Assembly: GCF_009467825.1 (NCBI RefSeq)
Contig: NZ_WIOK01000009.1
Location: 124,001-188,000, forward strand
DNA: 64,000 nucleotides
Direction: 5' to 3'
Source of the DNA: Cyclobacterium xiamenense
GTDB taxonomy: Bacteria; Bacteroidota; Bacteroidia; Cytophagales; Cyclobacteriaceae
Shown here: positions 2,382 to 53,186 of the stretch, one piece after another
How positions within the stretch are numbered: position 1 is the stretch's first letter
Layout: each line of letters begins with the position of its first letter
Notes under the pieces: model-generated
The model's database searches: none
What the model was told of the DNA's origin: nothing
Seen by the model: the letters and a program-made list of their open reading frames with translations, nothing else
Translations under genes and position numbers: made by a program

Positions 2382-3440
2382 ATGAGTGAACTTTCAACAC
2401 AACACAAAAGCCCAGGTACAGCCTACGTATGGTTGCCAATCTTACTCTTGGTTTCGGTCCTATACTCCCAAGCTACAGCCCAGGTAGATACGCTAGGGCT
2501 CCGGAATGGAAACGTACTTCACGGGGAAATCAAAAGCATGGACAAGGGAGTCTTGAAGATGGAGACCGATTATAGCGACGAAGACTTCAAAATCGAGTGG
2601 GAGAAGATTGCCTTCATCCAGACGACCACACAGTTCATCATCATGAGTAAGAACAAAAACCGGTTTGTAGGCACCCTGCTGAGTCCGGATTCGGCCAGGG
2701 TGCATGTGGTAAGCAACCGCGATACCCTTGCCACGCTTCCCTACGAGGAAGTTATTTACCTGAACTCCCTGAAAACCAAATTCCTGGATCGGCTGTCTGC
2801 GTCCATCGGTTTGTCGTATAATTTCACCCGTGCCAATGACCTCCGGCAGTTTAATGTGCGAAGTACACTAGGGTACCGCGCAAAAAAATGGTCGGCGACA
2901 GGAAGCTACAATGACCTGCGTTCCTTTCAGGAGGGTTCCACGCCCATACGTCGGCTAAATGCCGATACTCGGGTCAGTTATTTCCTAAAGAAGAATTGGT
3001 TTGGTTTGGCCGCCATAAACTTGCTATCCAATACAGAGCAGTTGATTGAGCTTCGGACCGTAAGTAAACTAGGTTTAGGAAAATACATCGTTCGAACAAA
3101 TCGTACTTATTGGGGATTTACCGGCGGTATCTCGTTCAACAACGAAGTATTTTCCCTGCCCGGAAGCAACCCAAGAAACAGGAGCGGAGAAGGATTTATT
3201 GGATCGGAGCTAAACCTATATGGGTTGGATGACCTAAGCTTGATTTCCCATGTCGTGGCGTATCCCAGCCTGACGGAGAGCGGACGATGGCGGATCGACT
3301 ATTCATTTGACGTCAAATACGATCTGCCTTTGAACCTGTATTTTGGGCTGGGATTCACGGTGAATTTTGACAACCGACCCAGAGAAAATGCCAGCAGGTC
3401 CGATTACGTTTTTCAAACTTCCTTCGGCTGGAAGCTTTAG
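2382..3440 (+). CDS. DUF481 family outer membrane protein
   Basis: A 352-residue exported protein with a hydrophobic signal at residues 16-34 ending near TAQ. Residues about 36-130 form a small N-terminal unit (DTLGLRNGNVLHGEIKSMD) often seen before DUF481 in Bacteroidota. Residues about 135-352 have alternating hydrophobic strands with aromatic belts, ending in VFQTSFGWKL, as expected for a beta-barrel of the DUF481 (YdiY-like) family. Members are outer-membrane proteins of unknown role, some induced by salt. It lies upstream of the efflux operon but is separated from it by 230 bases, so co-transcription is uncertain. Confidence 0.7.
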   Translation: MSELSTQHKSPGTAYVWLPILLLVSVLYSQATAQVDTLGLRNGNVLHGEIKSMDKGVLKMETDYSDEDFKIEWEKIAFIQTTTQFIIMSKNKNRFVGTLLSPDSARVHVVSNRDTLATLPYEEVIYLNSLKTKFLDRLSASIGLSYNFTRANDLRQFNVRSTLGYRAKKWSATGSYNDLRSFQEGSTPIRRLNADTRVSYFLKKNWFGLAAINLLSNTEQLIELRTVSKLGLGKYIVRTNRTYWGFTGGISFNNEVFSLPGSNPRNRSGEGFIGSELNLYGLDDLSLISHVVAYPSLTESGRWRIDYSFDVKYDLPLNLYFGLGFTVNFDNRPRENASRSDYVFQTSFGWKL

Positions 3441-3671: not shown

Positions 3672-4850
3672 ATGAAAAGAAGTAAAATGAAAGGAGTCGG
3701 AATCGTTTTTTTCCTATCCGCATGCAGTGTTATTTTTTCATGTAGCGAAAAAGAAAAGTCGGTTACCGGTACAGCGGCGATCAAGGAATTTCCGGTGATT
3801 CAGGTGGTGGCAAAAGATACGATCCTTCACCGTGATTACGTAGCAGATATCAAAGCCATACAAAACGTGGAATTGAGAGCACGGGTGGAGGGTTTTCTCG
3901 AACGGGTATTTGTAGACGAAGGCAAGGAAGTAAAAAAGGGTCAGATCCTCTTTAAAACCAACGATCAGGAATACAAAGCGGACCTGGCCAAAGCGAAGGC
4001 AAATTTGGAAAGCGCCAAAGCAGAGGCGAAGGTGATGGAATTTGAAGTGGAGCGGCTAAAAATCATGGTGGACAATAACGTGATTTCGGAGTCCGAGTTG
4101 AACCTGACGCGTGCCAAGTACGATGCGGTGATGGCCAAGATAGAGGAAGCCAAATCGGCAGAAGCCAATGCGGCGGTGCAGCTATCCTACACCGAAATCC
4201 GCGCCCCTTTCGATGGCACCACGGACAGGATTCCGTTACGAACGGGGAGTTTGATCGATCAGGGAAGTTTGCTGACCACGGTATCCGATGTGAGTTCGGT
4301 TCACGTGTATTTCAATGTTTCGGAACGCGAATACCTGGAATACATCAAGTCCAAGGACGAAACAGCGGAGAATAACGTGGTGGAGTTGGTGTTGGCGGAT
4401 GGTTCTCCCTATCCGTTTAAGGGGATGATCGAAACCATGGAAGGCGAGTTTAACGCGAATACCGGTTCCATAGCCTTTCGGGCCCGCTTTCCCAATCCGA
4501 ACAAGATTTTAAAGCACGGTTCTACCGGGAAGATTATTTTAACAAACCGCATACGGAACGCCATTATCATTCCGCAGAAAGCGGTGTTCGAGATTCAGGA
4601 CCGAAGTTTTGTGTACGTGGTGGACGACAATAACCAGGTAGAAATGAGAAGTTTTGTACCGCGGGCACGGTTTTCCCATTATTATATTGTGGAATCCGGA
4701 TTGGAGGCCGGCGAACGCCTGGTGTTTGAAGGCATTCAAAACATCAAAAATGGGATGACCATCCAGCCTAAAATAATGGCTTCGGATGAGGAAGCAGGCG
4801 AACCCGTACAGGACGAAAATGGCCTGGCCGAAGTAGTACACACCCCTTAA
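3672..4850 (+). CDS. RND efflux periplasmic adaptor (membrane fusion protein)
   Basis: A 392-residue HlyD/AcrA-type adaptor linking the inner-membrane pump to the outer-membrane channel. The ATG at 3672 is preferred over a TTG at 3621: an AGGAGA sequence sits about 8 bases upstream, and the N-terminus becomes a lipoprotein signal (FLSACSVIFSC). Visible parts are the first half lipoyl motif (VELRARVEGFLERVFVDEGK), a coiled-coil hairpin at about residues 100-165 (rich in AKA/EAK), the second lipoyl half with YTEIRAPFDGTTDR, and beta-barrel and membrane-proximal domains to the end. It is 12 bases upstream of the pump gene, so the two are surely one operon. The substrate cannot be read from sequence. 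Confidence 0.92.
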   Translation: MKRSKMKGVGIVFFLSACSVIFSCSEKEKSVTGTAAIKEFPVIQVVAKDTILHRDYVADIKAIQNVELRARVEGFLERVFVDEGKEVKKGQILFKTNDQEYKADLAKAKANLESAKAEAKVMEFEVERLKIMVDNNVISESELNLTRAKYDAVMAKIEEAKSAEANAAVQLSYTEIRAPFDGTTDRIPLRTGSLIDQGSLLTTVSDVSSVHVYFNVSEREYLEYIKSKDETAENNVVELVLADGSPYPFKGMIETMEGEFNANTGSIAFRARFPNPNKILKHGSTGKIILTNRIRNAIIIPQKAVFEIQDRSFVYVVDDNNQVEMRSFVPRARFSHYYIVESGLEAGERLVFEGIQNIKNGMTIQPKIMASDEEAGEPVQDENGLAEVVHTP

Positions 4851-4862
4851 GCGAAAACCGTC

Positions 4863-7800
4863 ATGTTCAAGTTATTTATCAAGCGGCCGGTTTTATCCCT
4901 GGTCATTTCTCTTTTTTTCGTGCTGCTGGGACTCTTGTCTTTCTTTACCCTGCCCGTAGAATTGTTTCCGGACATTGCCCCTCCATCGGTAGCCATACGA
5001 GCAAAATACCGGGGTGCGAACGCAGAGGTGGCTGCGAAGACGGTTGCCACCCCTTTGGAAAAAGTAGTTAACGGGGTTCCGGGTATGACTTACATGACCT
5101 CAGTAAGCAGCAATCGCGGTACGGTGATAATCAAAGTGTATTTTGAAGCCGGAACCGACCCTGACCTGGCTGCGGTAGAGATACAAAACCGTATCTCTAC
5201 CGTGGTAAACGAATTGCCCGAGGAAGCGATCCAAGCGGGCGTGACGGTGGAAAAGCAGGTGGAGGGATTGCTCATGTACATCAATGTAGCCAGTGAGGAC
5301 ACGTCGCTGGACGAAGCCTTTATTTATAACTTTACTGATCTGAATGTGCTGCAGGAATTGCGACGGGTGGACGGAGTTGGTTTGGCGGAAATAATGAGTA
5401 CGAAGGATTATTCCATGCGGATCTGGCTGAAACCAGACCGGATGACAGCGTATAAAGTGTCGACTGACGATGTGGTGCAGGCCATTCGGGATCAGAACGT
5501 GGAGGCTGCTCCAGGGCAACTGGGCATCAGTTCCGGTAAGGACATGCAGATGCTGCAGTACGTCTTGAAATACACTGGAAAGTTTTATGAACCCAAGCAA
5601 TACGAAAACCTGGTCATCCGAGCCAATCCAGATGGTTCTATCCTACGCTTGAAGGACATCGCGGATATTGAATTCGGAAACCTGAATTATGGCAGGATCG
5701 CCAAACTGGACGGCAAGCCAGCTGCCTCCATCATGGTGATCCAACGTCCTGGGTCCAATGCAAGTGAAGTAATCGCGAACGTGAAAAAGAAAGTTGCGGA
5801 AATAAAAGACACTACCTTTCCTGCAGGAATGGATTACAAAATTTCCTACGACGTGTCGCGCTTTCTGAACGCTTCGATTCAAGAGGTGTTGGTGACCTTG
5901 GTGGAAGCCTTTATTTTGGTATTTATCGTGGTTTTTATTTTCCTCCAGGATTTTCGATCCACGCTTATTCCTACCCTGGCGGTACCGGTAGCCCTGATAG
6001 GCACCTTGTTTTTCATGCAGTGGCTGGGATTTTCCATCAATCTGCTGACCTTATTTGCCCTTGTTTTGGCCATCGGTATCGTGGTCGACAATGCCATCGT
6101 GGTGGTAGAAGCGGTGCATGCGAAGATGGAAAAAGAGGGCTTGGCTCCTCGCGCAGCGACCTTCGCTGCCATGAAGGAGATTAGCGGGGCCATTATTGCC
6201 ATCACCATGGTGATGTCGGCGGTATTTATCCCGGTGGCCTTCATGTCTGGCCCGGTGGGGATCTTCTACCGGCAGTTTTCCCTGACCCTGGCTTTTGCGA
6301 TTTTTATCTCAGGAATCAATGCCTTGACACTGACCCCGGCGCTCTGTGCGATACTCCTGCAAAATCACTACGGTAAGGAAAAGAAACATACACTGTTGCA
6401 GCGGTTCTTTGACTGGTTTAACCGTACGTATACCTTTTTCGAGGGGAAATACTACCAGTACATCACGTACATCGTTCCGCGGCGGGGAGTGACCACGCTA
6501 ATCCTGGTGTTTTTCTTTGCAGCGACCTGGGGTATCAGTAAAATACTGCCCACCGGCTTTATCCCCACGGAGGATCAAAGCATGGTCTACGTCAACGTAA
6601 CAACTCCCGTGGGTGCCACCGTGGAACGAACCGAAAAGGTACTTGATGAACTGGTTTCGAAACTGGAAGGCAACGAAGCGGTGGAATCGGTCTCCAGTTT
6701 GGCAGGCTATTCCCTGGGTAACGGCCTTTCCGGCGCTTCCTACGGAATGGCCATGGTCAACCTGAAATCCTGGGATGAACGTAAAGATTTGCCCATACAA
6801 GAGACACTTGATCAATTCAGGGGCTTGTCGGAAGGCGTGTCCGATGCAAAAATCGATTTCTTTTTGCCACCAACAGTTTCGGGCTTTGGCAATTCCAGCG
6901 GATTTCAAATGAAGGTGCTCGATCAGACGGGAACGGGAAACCTGGACCGTCTCGCAACGATTACCAACGAATTGATCGAGGAACTTGAAGCAGCTCCGGA
7001 AATCAGCAATGCATTTACGGATTTTGACCCAACTTTCCCCCAGTTTGTCGTACATATTGATCAAGACATGGCGGCTAAAAATGGCGTTACCATCGCCAAG
7101 GCGCTCAGCACCATGCAGGTATTGCTGGGAGGGATGTACGTGTCGGATTTTGTCCGTTTTGAGCAGATGTACGATGTGATGCTTCAGGCTGGGCCTCAGT
7201 ACCGGGCCAGACCGGAAGACGTCATGAATTTGCAAGTGAAGAATAATGTAGGGGAGATGGTGCCTATTTCCTCCTTTCTTACGATGGAAAAAGCCTACGG
7301 TCCCGAACAGCTCACCCGCTTTAATATGTACAATTCGTCCACTGTTAAGGGAGCGGCTGCTCCGGGTTACAGTAGCGGGGACGTCATTGCGGCGATCGAA
7401 CGAATAGCGGCGGAAAAATTGCCTCAAGGCTATGGACACGACTGGTACGGCATGTCCCGGGAAGAGGTAGGATCTGGAAACCAGGCCATCGTTATTTTCC
7501 TGATCTGTTTGTTGTTCGTGTACTTGATCCTGTCTGCCCAATACGAGAGCTTTTTGCTTCCCCTGCCAGTGATCCTCTCCCTTCCCGTTGGGGTGTTTGG
7601 CGCCTTTTTCGCCTTGTATGTGCTCGGATTGCAAAACAACATTTACGCACAGGTAGCACTGATCATGCTGATCGGGCTATTGGGCAAAAATGCCATTTTG
7701 ATTGTGGAGTTTGCCATACAAAAAAGAGAAGCCGGGCATACGGTGGTGCAGGCTGCGGTAGAGGGAGCGGTCACCCGACTTCGGCCCATTTTGATGACCT

Positions 7801-49066: not shown

Positions 49067-49759
49067 GTGAAAAGATTCTTCCTTTGGTCGGCCCGGATTT
49101 TTCTCGGTCTGTTTTTATTTTCCATTCTGGCCGTGATGGCGCTGGGAGTGTTACCGGTTTATTTTACCCCATTAATGGGTATCCGGGCTACCGAGCAACT
49201 TCTGGATAGGGAGCGGGAATTTCGCCTGGAAAAAGATTGGGTTCCCATGGAGAAGATTTCTCCCTTTCTTTACCGCGCCGTGATCGCATCGGAGGACCAG
49301 AAATTTTTGGATCACCATGGATTTGATTGGGAAGCTATTCGGGCAGCTATGGACGAAAACCGCAGCGGGAAACGGCTGAGGGGAGGAAGCACGATCACCA
49401 ACCAGACGGCAAAAAATGTGTTTTTATGGCCGGGGAGAAACCTGCTACGAAAAGGGCTGGAAGCGTATTTTACCTTACTTATTGAGTTTTTTTGGTCCAA
49501 AGAACGGATCCTGGAAGTGTACCTGAACGTCATTGAAATGGGAGATGGCATCTACGGTGCAGAGGCTGCGGCTCGGGTGTATTTTGGGAAAGCAGCCGTC
49601 GATCTGAACCGGCAGGAGGCGGCGTTGATCGCGGCCGTCTTACCGAATCCGCTTCGTTGGAGACCCGACCAGCCCAGTTCCTACCTGCGGCAACGGCAGG
49701 CCTGGATCCTACGCAACATGAGAAATCTCGGAGAGCTTCCTTTAAATGGAGCGCAATAG
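49067..49759 (+). CDS. mtgA: Monofunctional peptidoglycan glycosyltransferase
   Basis: A 230-residue membrane-anchored GT51 enzyme polymerising lipid II into glycan strands. A GTG start is required because an in-frame TAA lies at 49052-49054 and no ATG follows before the anchor. One N-terminal helix (about 8-30) precedes the GT51 domain: VIASEDQKFLDHHGFDW (catalytic Glu), LRGGSTITNQTAKNVFLWP and VYLNVIEMGDGIYGAEAAA. The stop lies one base before the first copy of the 46-bp repeat, so its natural 3' neighbour was probably the UPF0316-type gene now displaced to 52584. Confidence 0.93.
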   Translation: MKRFFLWSARIFLGLFLFSILAVMALGVLPVYFTPLMGIRATEQLLDREREFRLEKDWVPMEKISPFLYRAVIASEDQKFLDHHGFDWEAIRAAMDENRSGKRLRGGSTITNQTAKNVFLWPGRNLLRKGLEAYFTLLIEFFWSKERILEVYLNVIEMGDGIYGAEAAARVYFGKAAVDLNRQEAALIAAVLPNPLRWRPDQPSSYLRQRQAWILRNMRNLGELPLNGAQ

Positions 49760-49760
49760 A

Positions 49761-49806
49761 CCTATTTCCTGATGAGATTCCGCAGCCGGGTGGTAAACCG
49801 GGGTCG
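49761..49806. repeat. 46-bp direct repeat, copy 1 (att-like)
   Basis: This is an exact copy of 52583-52628. Read on the minus strand it is the last 14 codons plus stop (ending in NLIRK) of the UPF0316-type gene, here detached from the rest of that gene. Similarity stops abruptly on both sides. Inside, CCGG arms at 49786-49789 and 49798-49801 form an imperfect inverted repeat around GTGGTAAA, a layout seen in recombinase core sites. Confidence 0.85.
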
Positions 49807-50111
49807 ATACCGATGCCGGCAGTCCAAGGTTTATCAACCAATCGCCTGAATTTGGGCCGGGGTAGGGGTAAAAATGCAATAGAAGAAATTTGGTGCAACT
49901 AGTTGCGCCAGAACGTTTTACTTTTGGCCAAATTAGGAGAATTGTCTAAAGTACCTACCTGGAGGCCAGCTGCCATACATTGGTAAAATTCTTCGAAATC
50001 GCAATTCGGCTAGATCATTCCGAACCACTTGGCTAGTTTGAGAACAAGACGGACAAATACTGTTGTCATACTGGTAAAAACCTTATCTTTCGCTCTCACT
50101 TTCGTTACCAA
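49807..50111. other. Islet left flank with BCCT promoter candidate
   Basis: About 300 bases without a gene. A TTG at 50063-50065 lies 18 bases before TATCTTTC at 50084-50091, close to the TAnnTTTG promoter, and would start transcription shortly before the BCCT ATG at 50112. The palindrome-like GCAACTAGTTGC at about 49893-49904 is a perfect 12-base inverted repeat. No tRNA-like fold was seen. Confidence 0.4.
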
Positions 50112-51650
50112 ATGTCAGCGAAGCTAAAGCTTAAACCTTGGGTGTTTTTTCCGCCGGTAGTTATTCTAGGGATGACCCTGGCTTTTGGAGTCACCTACAG
50201 CGAACCCTTTCTTCGACTGGCTGAAAGAACCAAAGACGGAATGCTCAATCAGTTCGGTTGGCTTTTTTCCTGGAGTGCGTTTGCTTTCCTGATTCTATTA
50301 GGGACTGCCTACGTGCTTCCATTTGGCCGGACAAAAATTGGGGGGAAGGCAGCTGTTCCAATTTTAAGCAAATGGCGCTGGTTTGCCATTACACTCTGTA
50401 CTACCGTCGCCACGGGTATCCTGTTTTGGGGTATGGCTGAACCACTTCACCACCTCCACCGACCTCCACCGGCATTGTCGATTGAAAGTGGGTCCAGTTT
50501 GGCAGCGGTCTTTTCGCTGGCTACACTACACATGCATTGGTCGTTTACGCCCTACGGTGTGTATACGCTTGCAGGATTGGTTTTTGCACTTTCCTACTAC
50601 AATCTACATCAGCCTTTCAGTCTGACAGCTAGTATAGCTCCCCTCTCAACGAAACTCGCGGGTAATCGCTTCGGGAAGCTTATCGATGTCATTTGTTTAT
50701 ACGCGCTGGTTCTTGGAATGTCAGCATCGCTAGGTACCGGTATGTTTGCCATTACCGGAGGTCTGGATTTACTAATGGGTTGGACTAAATCGGCTGTGCT
50801 TTTAGCCATGATTGGATTTTTGATCGTTTTCAGCTTTGTGTTTTCTGCCATTAGCGGTCTGCATCGGGGCATAGCAATTCTTTCTGATGTCAATGTAAAG
50901 GCCTTCTTTGGCCTGGCAGTTTTTGTACTGATCACCGGGCCTACCCTCGATATTCTTAGCTTGGGTTGGGAAAGTGTTCAGGATTACGCGGTAAATTTTT
51001 TCCCCAGAAGCGTCAGTTTTGGTGATACGGTTGATCAGGAATGGGAGCAAGACTGGACCTTATTTTACCTCGCGAACTGGTACGCATGGGCGCCGGTCGC
51101 TGCATTATTTTTAGGTCGTATATCCGTCGGATACACTGTTCGAGACTTTATTTTGTTCAACCTGGTATTCCCCTCTCTGTTCACAATAATTTGGATGAGT
51201 ATTTTCGGGGGTACTTCGCTGACTTTCGACATGCAGGAAGGACAAAGCCTTTTTGACATAATGGAACTGAGAGGGGAAGAGATCGTTATGTTTCAGGTGT
51301 TAGGCAGTTTGCCCTTTGGACGGATAGTCAGCCTAGCCACGTTGGTTATGGTTTTTATCTCTTACGTGACCGCCGCCGATTCCAACGTCTCCGCCATGTC
51401 AGCGATCAGCACGCATGGAATCAGTCCCAATCAGCCCGAAGCACCGCTTTGGCTCAAACTCGTTTGGGGGTCAATTATTGGTATAACTGCCTGGTTAATG
51501 GTTTCTACTGCTGGTATTGAAGGGATTCGGATACTCTCCGTAATGGGGGGATTCCCAGCCTTATTTCTTGTGATTAGTGTTGCCGCAGGCCTCCTTAAAA
51601 TGATTCTAACCTCGGGGGCACGGCGGCTGGACGAGGAACTGCCTTCTTGA
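50112..51650 (+). CDS. BCCT-family betaine/carnitine/choline transporter
   Basis: A 512-residue transporter with about 12 helices, related to those importing glycine betaine, choline or carnitine. Family landmarks are ATGILFWGMAEPLHHLHRPP (the WGxxEP element), MHWSFTPYGVYTLAGLVFAL, GMSASLGTGMFAITGGLD, SGLHRGIAILSDVNVKAFF and VMVFISYVTAADSNVSAM. The usual charged C-terminal regulatory tail is short (ending RRLDEELPS), so osmotic gating may be limited. It lies inside the repeat-bounded islet. Its 3' end overlaps the convergent TIGR02117 gene by 56 bases. The ligand cannot be deduced. Confidence 0.9.
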   Translation: MSAKLKLKPWVFFPPVVILGMTLAFGVTYSEPFLRLAERTKDGMLNQFGWLFSWSAFAFLILLGTAYVLPFGRTKIGGKAAVPILSKWRWFAITLCTTVATGILFWGMAEPLHHLHRPPPALSIESGSSLAAVFSLATLHMHWSFTPYGVYTLAGLVFALSYYNLHQPFSLTASIAPLSTKLAGNRFGKLIDVICLYALVLGMSASLGTGMFAITGGLDLLMGWTKSAVLLAMIGFLIVFSFVFSAISGLHRGIAILSDVNVKAFFGLAVFVLITGPTLDILSLGWESVQDYAVNFFPRSVSFGDTVDQEWEQDWTLFYLANWYAWAPVAALFLGRISVGYTVRDFILFNLVFPSLFTIIWMSIFGGTSLTFDMQEGQSLFDIMELRGEEIVMFQVLGSLPFGRIVSLATLVMVFISYVTAADSNVSAMSAISTHGISPNQPEAPLWLKLVWGSIIGITAWLMVSTAGIEGIRILSVMGGFPALFLVISVAAGLLKMILTSGARRLDEELPS

Positions 51651-52314
51651 GCTGGTAAAAAATTCCTGCTCCCCCGTGGGACCAAATTGGCGCTCGTACG
51701 CCTATCTGAATCAGCCCCCGGTTGACCCAGAAATTGCATGTTCCGAAAGCGTGATACGATCCCATTGCCTCATAAAAATTATCGTTGGTGGTATAGCCTT
51801 TTCCGGGAAGAAGAATAACACCGTTTTCACGTTGCTTAAAAAAGCTGCAGATATAATCGCACAGTTGCAGGTACTGCTCGATGCTAAGGTGAATGGACTC
51901 CAGGCGCTTCTGGTTTTTGGGCAATTCGGGGTGTAGGGTTACATGCATGAGTGTGGGACTTGGAATTAGCATCGCCCGCGCTGCAACTTTAGGCTTTAGG
52001 TTGGCCCACTCGTCAACTTCCAGGTAGAAACCGCGGTCACCCCAGCCGATGCCAAGAAAATTGTTTTCGGCAAGGGGCGTTTCAAAATCGCGGCCGCCAA
52101 GTACTTTTTTCCAGTCGAAATAGGGAGAAATACTTGGAAGTATATAGTCCACGTGTACACCATTGGAAACGACAAAAATTTCAATATCCCGTTGAATGTT
52201 TAGAAACTGTTTATTTACGGGTATTAGGAAACAAAGCAAACCAGCCAGGCTGTATAAAAGGATGAATAAAACAAAACTGAACACTATTCCTCCTAAAATC
52301 GCCAGATAAACCAT
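51595..52314 (-). CDS. TIGR02117/DUF2459 family protein
   Basis: A 239-residue protein with an N-terminal membrane helix (about residues 5-33, IVFSFVLFILLYSLAGLLCF). The rest matches the DUF2459 family: IFVVSNGVHVDYILPS, FLGIGWGDRGFYLE, GYTTNDNFYEAMGSYHAFGT and CNFWVNRGLIQIGV. The conserved His and Cys suggest an NlpC/P60-like thiol peptidase-type fold, but no activity is known for the family. It converges with and overlaps the BCCT gene by 56 bases, and lies inside the islet. Confidence 0.82.
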   Translation of the reverse strand: MVYLAILGGIVFSFVLFILLYSLAGLLCFLIPVNKQFLNIQRDIEIFVVSNGVHVDYILPSISPYFDWKKVLGGRDFETPLAENNFLGIGWGDRGFYLEVDEWANLKPKVAARAMLIPSPTLMHVTLHPELPKNQKRLESIHLSIEQYLQLCDYICSFFKQRENGVILLPGKGYTTNDNFYEAMGSYHAFGTCNFWVNRGLIQIGVRAPIWSHGGAGIFYQLKKAVPRPAAVPPRLESF

Positions 52315-52582
52315 AAACGTGATGAATTTTCACAAAGTAAGGTTCCGTCTATGACTACATGGTATTCCAAACGCTATCTTTTTGTTATTTTTTTGAGAGG
52401 CTTTCCTTCCTTGTAAGAAGCTGCGTGCGATTTGAGCCGAAAGTTGACAGTTTCTGGTACGGCATTTCCATCCAACCCATTGTGATAGAGTCCAGAAGAT
52501 TCAGTTTTATCTCTGCCTGCGAAAGGCAGTAATCTTGCACACTTCGGGCAATTCGAGTGACTAATAGGTAAAAAGCAACATC
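52315..52582. other. Islet right flank, no gene seen
   Basis: About 270 bases precede the second repeat copy. I found no recognisable reading frame, tRNA-like fold or terminator. It likely contains the promoter of the TIGR02117 gene near 52330-52400 and otherwise degenerate sequence up to the islet edge. Confidence 0.45.
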
Positions 52583-52628
52583 CCTATTTCCTGATGAGAT
52601 TCCGCAGCCGGGTGGTAAACCGGGGTCG
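52583..52628. repeat. 46-bp direct repeat, copy 2 (att-like)
   Basis: This is the intact copy, covering the last 14 codons and stop of the UPF0316-type gene, whose TAG stop is at 52584-52586 on the minus strand. It is identical over 46 bases to 49761-49806 and marks the right end of the islet. Confidence 0.85.
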
Positions 52629-53186
52629 GTCTTCCATCACGTTGAGGTCATCTTCCGATATCCGCTTGACACTCTCGATGGTGTAAAATGCCTTTTCGTT
52701 ACTTTCTTTCAGCTTGCTGATAAATCCAGGAAGGAGTTCGCGCTTGATGACTGTAAACATGAGCATAACTTTGCCATACCGGCCCTCTGCACCCACGGAA
52801 GTAAAGCGGTATTCTTTTTCTTTCATGTATTCGACCAGTTCAGGCAAGGGTTCCGGGGTGATGATTCGTACCAGTACCCGACCCAGCGCGAGGCGTTCCT
52901 CGATTACCATGCCCACATAGGTGCCCATGGCGTAGCCGCCTGCGTAGGCGATGTAGGAAAGCGGGTTGTTGATGTTTTGGAAAATCTGTCCAATGGCCAG
53001 AAGCCAGATCAGCGCCTCAAAGAATCCAAGCACGGGTGCAACGGTCCGCTTTCCGTTTAATACAAACATGATGCGCAGTGTATTGATGGACACATCCACT
53101 ACCCGAGCCAAAAAGATGAACAAAGGCATGAACAGGTAGTCGAAAAGCGTTTGGGAAATGCCTATGGATTCCAGTAGTTCCTGCAT
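52584..53186 (-). CDS. UPF0316 (DUF2179/DUF5698) membrane protein
   Basis: A 200-residue membrane protein. It has about three N-terminal helices (residues 10-100; FIFLARVVDVSINTLRIMFV, VLGFFEALIWLLAIGQIF) and a C-terminal DUF2179-like regulatory domain (VGAEGRYGKVMLMFTVIKR; FYTIESVKRISEDD). Related proteins bind cyclic dinucleotides or are uncharacterised. Its last 14 codons form the 46-bp repeat at the islet border, and the coding sequence is complete, as expected if the insertion restored the target gene. Confidence 0.85.
   Translation of the reverse strand: MQELLESIGISQTLFDYLFMPLFIFLARVVDVSINTLRIMFVLNGKRTVAPVLGFFEALIWLLAIGQIFQNINNPLSYIAYAGGYAMGTYVGMVIEERLALGRVLVRIITPEPLPELVEYMKEKEYRFTSVGAEGRYGKVMLMFTVIKRELLPGFISKLKESNEKAFYTIESVKRISEDDLNVMEDRPRFTTRLRNLIRK

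Follow-up and report, generated by a model that had tools for sequence, protein, structure and literature searches.

Genes and repeats at the locus

The window, as we call the whole 64,000-nucleotide stretch of the Cyclobacterium xiamenense genome that was analysed, holds a small islet between two intact genes. On its left lies mtgA (49067-49759, + strand; TIGR02070 above cut-off, PF00912), encoding a monofunctional peptidoglycan transglycosylase, and on its right a UPF0316-type (DUF5698/DUF2179) gene encoding 200 amino acids (52584-53186, - strand; NF003191 above cut-off, PF18955, PF10035). The stop codon of mtgA occupies 49757-49759 and is followed by a single base and then by the left copy of an exact 46-bp direct repeat (49761-49806, + strand), which is a displaced 3' end of the UPF0316-type gene, stop codon included. 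Rightwards come 305 bp of non-coding DNA (49807-50111), the gene of a BCCT-family (betaine/carnitine/choline) transporter of 512 amino acids downstream of it (50112-51650, + strand; PF02028 with E 1.1e-117, recognised by NCBIfam too), the gene of a TIGR02117/DUF2459 protein of 239 amino acids (51595-52314, - strand; PF09601, TIGR02117 above cut-off), 268 bp of non-coding DNA upstream of the latter (52315-52582), and finally the right repeat copy (52583-52628, + strand), made of the in-gene UPF0316-type 3' end, which finishes at 52584, plus one base. A preliminary description of the locus had placed an exact 46-base repeat at both ends of the BCCT/TIGR02117 segment, the right copy being the true end of the UPF0316-type gene and the left one lying one base past the mtgA stop; coordinates and identity were confirmed on all these points.

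The two copies agree at 46 of 46 positions, with a spacing of 2822 bp. Similarity drops immediately in their flanks, except that five of the eight bases directly to the left agree, GCAA among them. Under a simple composition model, about 3e-15 such repeat pairs would be expected by chance in 5.78 Mb, and no other exact direct repeat in the 64-kb window reaches 20 bp. A search for further copies, suggested in the preliminary description, found the 45-base core (the 46-mer minus its first base) only twice in the 5,782,277 bases of the genome with up to three mismatches allowed, ruling out a dispersed repeat.

The assembly itself was surveyed over 2,303,154 bases (40%) for maximal two-copy repeats of at least 20 bp lying 0.3-40 kb apart. 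Nine of the 75 repeats found were sharp and otherwise unique, and the 46-bp pair was the longest of them. The other eight measured 20-35 bp, four being in contig C22 and four in C11. Three of those in C11 sit within stretches rich in intergenic repeats and the fourth (24 bp, spacing 339) lies outside such stretches, while the longest one in C22 is similar in wording to an intergenic repeat family of C97. Dense clusters of intergenic repeats were seen in C11 at about 1-9.5 kb and 19-22 kb (loci L128, which is C11:1-20000, and L137). No second case of the islet architecture was recognised among the 2.30 Mb surveyed.

The preliminary description had held that the islet carries no recombinase, and indeed a Pfam/NCBIfam scan of the two islet ORFs returned no such family and no further family-bearing gene. 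There was likewise no transposase family in these two genes and no exact inverted match of at least 7 bp between the 150 bases at one end of the islet and the 150 at the other, which does not fit insertion of a transposon or IS. Neither non-coding part holds a gene remnant among the loci compared: six-frame translated pieces of the islet ends, set against the fetched loci, gave no remnants of integration or transfer genes, with matches at chance level only (best E 0.039). A known RNA element was also rejected, nothing in Rfam matching these ends at gathering threshold. The left part contains a terminator-like hairpin at 49889-49912, the total of such sites not being above chance, and promoter and terminator scans in general returned chance numbers only.

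A lineage-specific insertion with an exact duplication

Of 59 genomes, 31 proved to carry a UPF0316-type gene, that of the window among them. We fetched the loci of 29 relatives with 1.5 kb on each side, taking one genome per species. At 12 of these loci mtgA and the UPF0316-type gene are convergent neighbours without the islet, separated by a few to about 100 bases. These comprise all 11 congeners that the searches gave (G001-G011) and one genome of another genus (G029); at the remaining 17 loci mtgA is absent within 1.5 kb of the UPF0316-type gene. The stretch homologous to the repeat is single at each empty junction and double in the window genome. Searched as DNA across 390 family genomes, the islet is absent from the other 389, save for short BCCT-coding patches (65-93% identity) in 14 of them. 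The empty junction in 11 of 11 congeners and the absence of the islet from their genomes indicate that it was gained after this lineage split from them, and an ancestral islet lost elsewhere was rejected on the same absence. The islet is thus a lineage-specific insertion between the two genes, flanked by an exact duplication, and it is strongly indicated that no target was visibly lost. The comparison of junctions in close relatives that the preliminary description had proposed hence bears out its insertion reading, with an uninterrupted convergent junction in every congener and in G029.

Its further suggestion that the site may be an insertion hot spot, or that gene 3' ends may serve a small class of cargo, fared worse. 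The 12 junctions are empty, and no copy of the UPF0316 3' end was found in the 1.5-kb flanks of the 29 loci, three of which have other exact repeats of at least 16 bp. Downstream of the UPF0316-type gene, no integrase was found among 20 ORFs tested from 16 loci outside the genus (drawn from 39 listed, at most three per locus; a seventeenth locus had too little sequence). We saw no reuse of the site in the relatives examined, and a hot spot was rejected. Two of the repeats observed near UPF0316-type genes are an AT-rich direct repeat of 43 bp that lies upstream of the gene in G031 (L015:2399-2441 and 2605-2647) and a 31-bp low-complexity direct repeat flanking it in G017 (L031:1127-1157 and 2076-2106).

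We then compared the last 45 bases of the UPF0316-type gene with those of the window genome. Agreement was 30-36 of 45 in ten congeners and 23 of 45 in the eleventh, and none of 15 relatives exceeded 36 of 45. A tail carried in by an element from a different species would be of that species' version; the two copies are identical (46/46) whereas congeners agree at 36 of 45 positions at best, so the second copy arose in this lineage. As judged from these sequences, its origin would lie in the insertion event or in an element that had resided in the species for a long time. Compared with the whole gene, the gene end is better conserved in three of the 11 congeners only and less conserved in the other eight, which speaks against an element tuned to a conserved target.

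Two identical copies would likewise be expected if the gene end had first been duplicated in tandem and the islet had then replaced, or been inserted into, what lay between the copies, an alternative raised in the preliminary description. We consider this very improbable: beyond the 46 bp nothing else is duplicated apart from the five agreeing bases out of eight, and upstream of the left copy the frame of the gene meets two stops within about eight codons and reveals no further gene sequence. Least probable of all the explanations we weighed is an assembly artefact joining a contaminant contig. The genome is a 97-contig draft, yet both ends of a contaminant would need to carry the host 46-mer, and contamination is estimated at 0.51%.

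Origin of the two cargo genes

In the 11 congeners the BCCT transporter has only paralogues at 25-33% identity, and the TIGR02117 protein has one weak partial match (31%, in G004), the other ten genomes lacking any. Relatives of the transporter were obtained by querying genome contigs with an alignment, a single-protein query having matched none; the following figures refer to the best 80 of 337 matches. The closest relatives show 55% identity, a Saprospiraceae MAG being among them. Of nine at 53-55%, seven carry a Saprospiraceae label (counting Aureispira) and the other two are labelled Bacteroidia. In a tree, too, the rows nearest to the islet transporter are mostly labelled Saprospiraceae, its exact placement on a long branch being without support.

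A TIGR02117 gene adjoins the BCCT gene in three (L176, L178 and L202) of 85 scanned BCCT loci, many with short flanks, that is, the 80 best of 337 plus five from the search for congener BCCT genes; the three include the relatives listed first and third. The pair in L202 has the convergent arrangement of the islet. The islet pair overlaps tail to tail by 56 nt at its 3' ends (51595-51650), and the pair in L202 by only 4 nt. L202 is a 3.9-kb metagenome contig that also contains a 42-bp repeat before and inside the BCCT gene (1955-1996 and 3046-3087), beside unread bases, which is probably a scaffolding artefact. In L176 two tandem TIGR02117/DUF2459 genes stand directly upstream of a BCCT gene (4477-5954), an arrangement suggestive of a functional connection between these families. 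A literature search on TIGR02117 returned no paper.

In the distance of its codon use from that of the host, the BCCT gene ranks at the 97th percentile (611 size-matched ORFs) and the TIGR02117 gene only at the 79th (456 ORFs). Taken together, a foreign origin of the cargo is strongly indicated, and the islet looks like a piece of ordinary chromosomal DNA from another organism. Phage and plasmid origins were tried and rejected. A 31-base core of the repeat had no exact match in viral contigs; a close-relative scan of these contigs gave no TIGR02117 relative, three weak matches (28-29%) being found in phage records. Plasmid relatives of both proteins were all below 60% identity.

Two possible mechanisms: capture by the host or decay of an integrase element

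The reading we prefer, to which we would give somewhat less than an even chance, is an insertion made by the host, with a long target duplication and no recombinase encoded by the incoming DNA. A foreign piece of 2776 bp, with two convergent genes and the region upstream of each, would have been inserted once and recently, and 46 bp of target would have been left in two copies, so that mtgA and the UPF0316-type gene both stayed whole. The duplication would have been made during insertion by host repair or replication. Staggered breaks could have been filled in; alternatively, a strand in the course of copying may have exited the chromosome, gone through a foreign fragment and returned to the chromosome 46 bp behind its point of exit. 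Several observations support this reading: the site is empty in all 11 congeners and in G029, the two copies agree completely while relatives reach 36 of 45 at most, neither a recombinase nor a remnant of one was found in the islet, the cargo is like ordinary chromosomal DNA, with BCCT and TIGR02117 genes adjacent elsewhere, and there is no sign of integrases using the site in other genomes.

Other observations count against host-made capture. The two stop codons are 2 bp apart, and it is within this gap that the repeat has its outer edge. By simple arithmetic, 49 placements of a 46-bp duplication would keep both genes whole, and only three of them put the edge in the gap or at a stop codon; an att site at the gene end would account for this more naturally. 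The failure to recognise a second such architecture in the 2.30 Mb surveyed also weighs against capture. As to the machinery, no Ku homologue was found in the genome, making classical end joining unlikely; ComEC is present, and nothing specific is shown by that. In the portions of the literature retrieved, template switching with target duplication came up in nothing beyond a fly genome paper.

We rank host-made capture only marginally above a decayed integrase element; sequence alone does not separate the two, and their ranking is a judgement, not a computation. Such an element would have entered the 3' end of the UPF0316-type gene site-specifically, bringing its own copy of the gene end, and would later have lost its integrase and transfer genes by deletion, leaving attL, two cargo genes and attR. 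In the excerpt available, a paper on tyrosine-integrase elements gives direct repeats of 8-60 bp and housekeeping-gene 3' ends as usual for them and names their decayed forms CIMEs (PMC5704250). The repeats of the islet, as putative att sites, fall within this range at 46 bp, and as in the CIMEs described in that excerpt there are direct repeats at both ends, one of which restores the 3' end of a gene, and no integrase or transfer genes. That the repeat has its edge immediately beyond the stop codon also speaks for this reading, as do seven integrase-family matches in the genome, six of them over cut-off.

Several features of the islet are nevertheless unlike a CIME. A foreign tail would be expected, yet the copies agree at 46 of 46 positions while congeners differ at no fewer than nine of 45; with copies identical to the lineage, an integrase element would need to have resided in the species for a long time. 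No related integrase-bearing element was found at the site, either at the 12 empty junctions, in the 1.5-kb flanks of the 29 UPF0316 loci or among the 20 downstream ORFs tested at 16 loci outside the genus, and the cargo resembles ordinary chromosomal DNA. The islet ends hold no integrase remnant in the comparison with the fetched loci, which makes decay somewhat less probable, though CIMEs may lose all remnants. The 46-mer shows no core-like inverted repeat above chance (58% of shuffles did equally well), and the lack of an exact match to the 31-base core in viral contigs counts on the same side.

The preliminary description had also suggested that the islet may be mobilised in trans. Other tyrosine recombinases do exist in the genome, and a small non-autonomous element still moved by one of them is conceivable; we find this quite unlikely. 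Within about 1.5 kb on each side of the seven integrase matches, the longest match to the 46-mer was 10 bases, a length attained by 86% of 400 random 46-mers from the window. Moreover, no second islet and no further copy of the 46-mer was found in the genome, and congeners lack the islet.

Place among known insertions and meaning

The minimal mobile elements of Neisseria consist of variable cargo between conserved neighbours and lack mobility genes of their own, as does the islet; unlike it, they are not known to need a flanking duplication, and their sites are used repeatedly. Insertion with long target duplication was named in Helicobacter pylori (Nobusato et al. 2000), frequently with restriction-modification genes, as far as the available excerpts of later papers go (PMC1643837, PMC3031569, PMC4978471). 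There too the segment is missing in a related genome, in which the long direct repeat that flanks it is single. The islet differs from these cases in its cargo (a transporter and a TIGR02117 gene), in its host, a member of the Bacteroidota, and in a duplicated stretch that ends just past a stop codon.

Small variable segments of Escherichia coli, Staphylococcus aureus and Streptococcus pyogenes are flanked by direct repeats in 10-18% of cases, 66-94% of these repeats being shorter than 30 bp according to the portion of the source at hand (PMC2884548). The islet is, like them, a small accessory segment, with a longer repeat of 46 bp. Among transposed non-transposon genes of Arabidopsis, direct repeats above 30 bp were reported in 18 of 126, mostly present also at the empty orthologous site, and the authors further propose excision of a circle and reintegration by homology (PMC2869330, as excerpted). 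As described there, these cases differ in being eukaryotic and in involving movement within one genome.

We consider the islet a further, clean but isolated case of the known pattern of long target duplication, with other cargo and in another bacterial group, and see no sign of a class of its own. A repeat of a gene end around an islet does not by itself prove an integrase. Little documentation exists of how single foreign genes reach chromosomes when no mobile element carries them, and the clean pair of states found here, empty in relatives and filled in this genome, together with exact edges, makes the mechanism of insertion testable. More broadly, and as a generalisation that we regard as doubtful on present evidence, free-living Bacteroidota may acquire pairs of intact foreign genes from distant chromosomes and integrate them although the incoming DNA carries no recombinase, duplicating tens of base pairs of target and so sparing both neighbours; closely spaced convergent gene ends would be preferred sites, as a duplication there would cost nothing.
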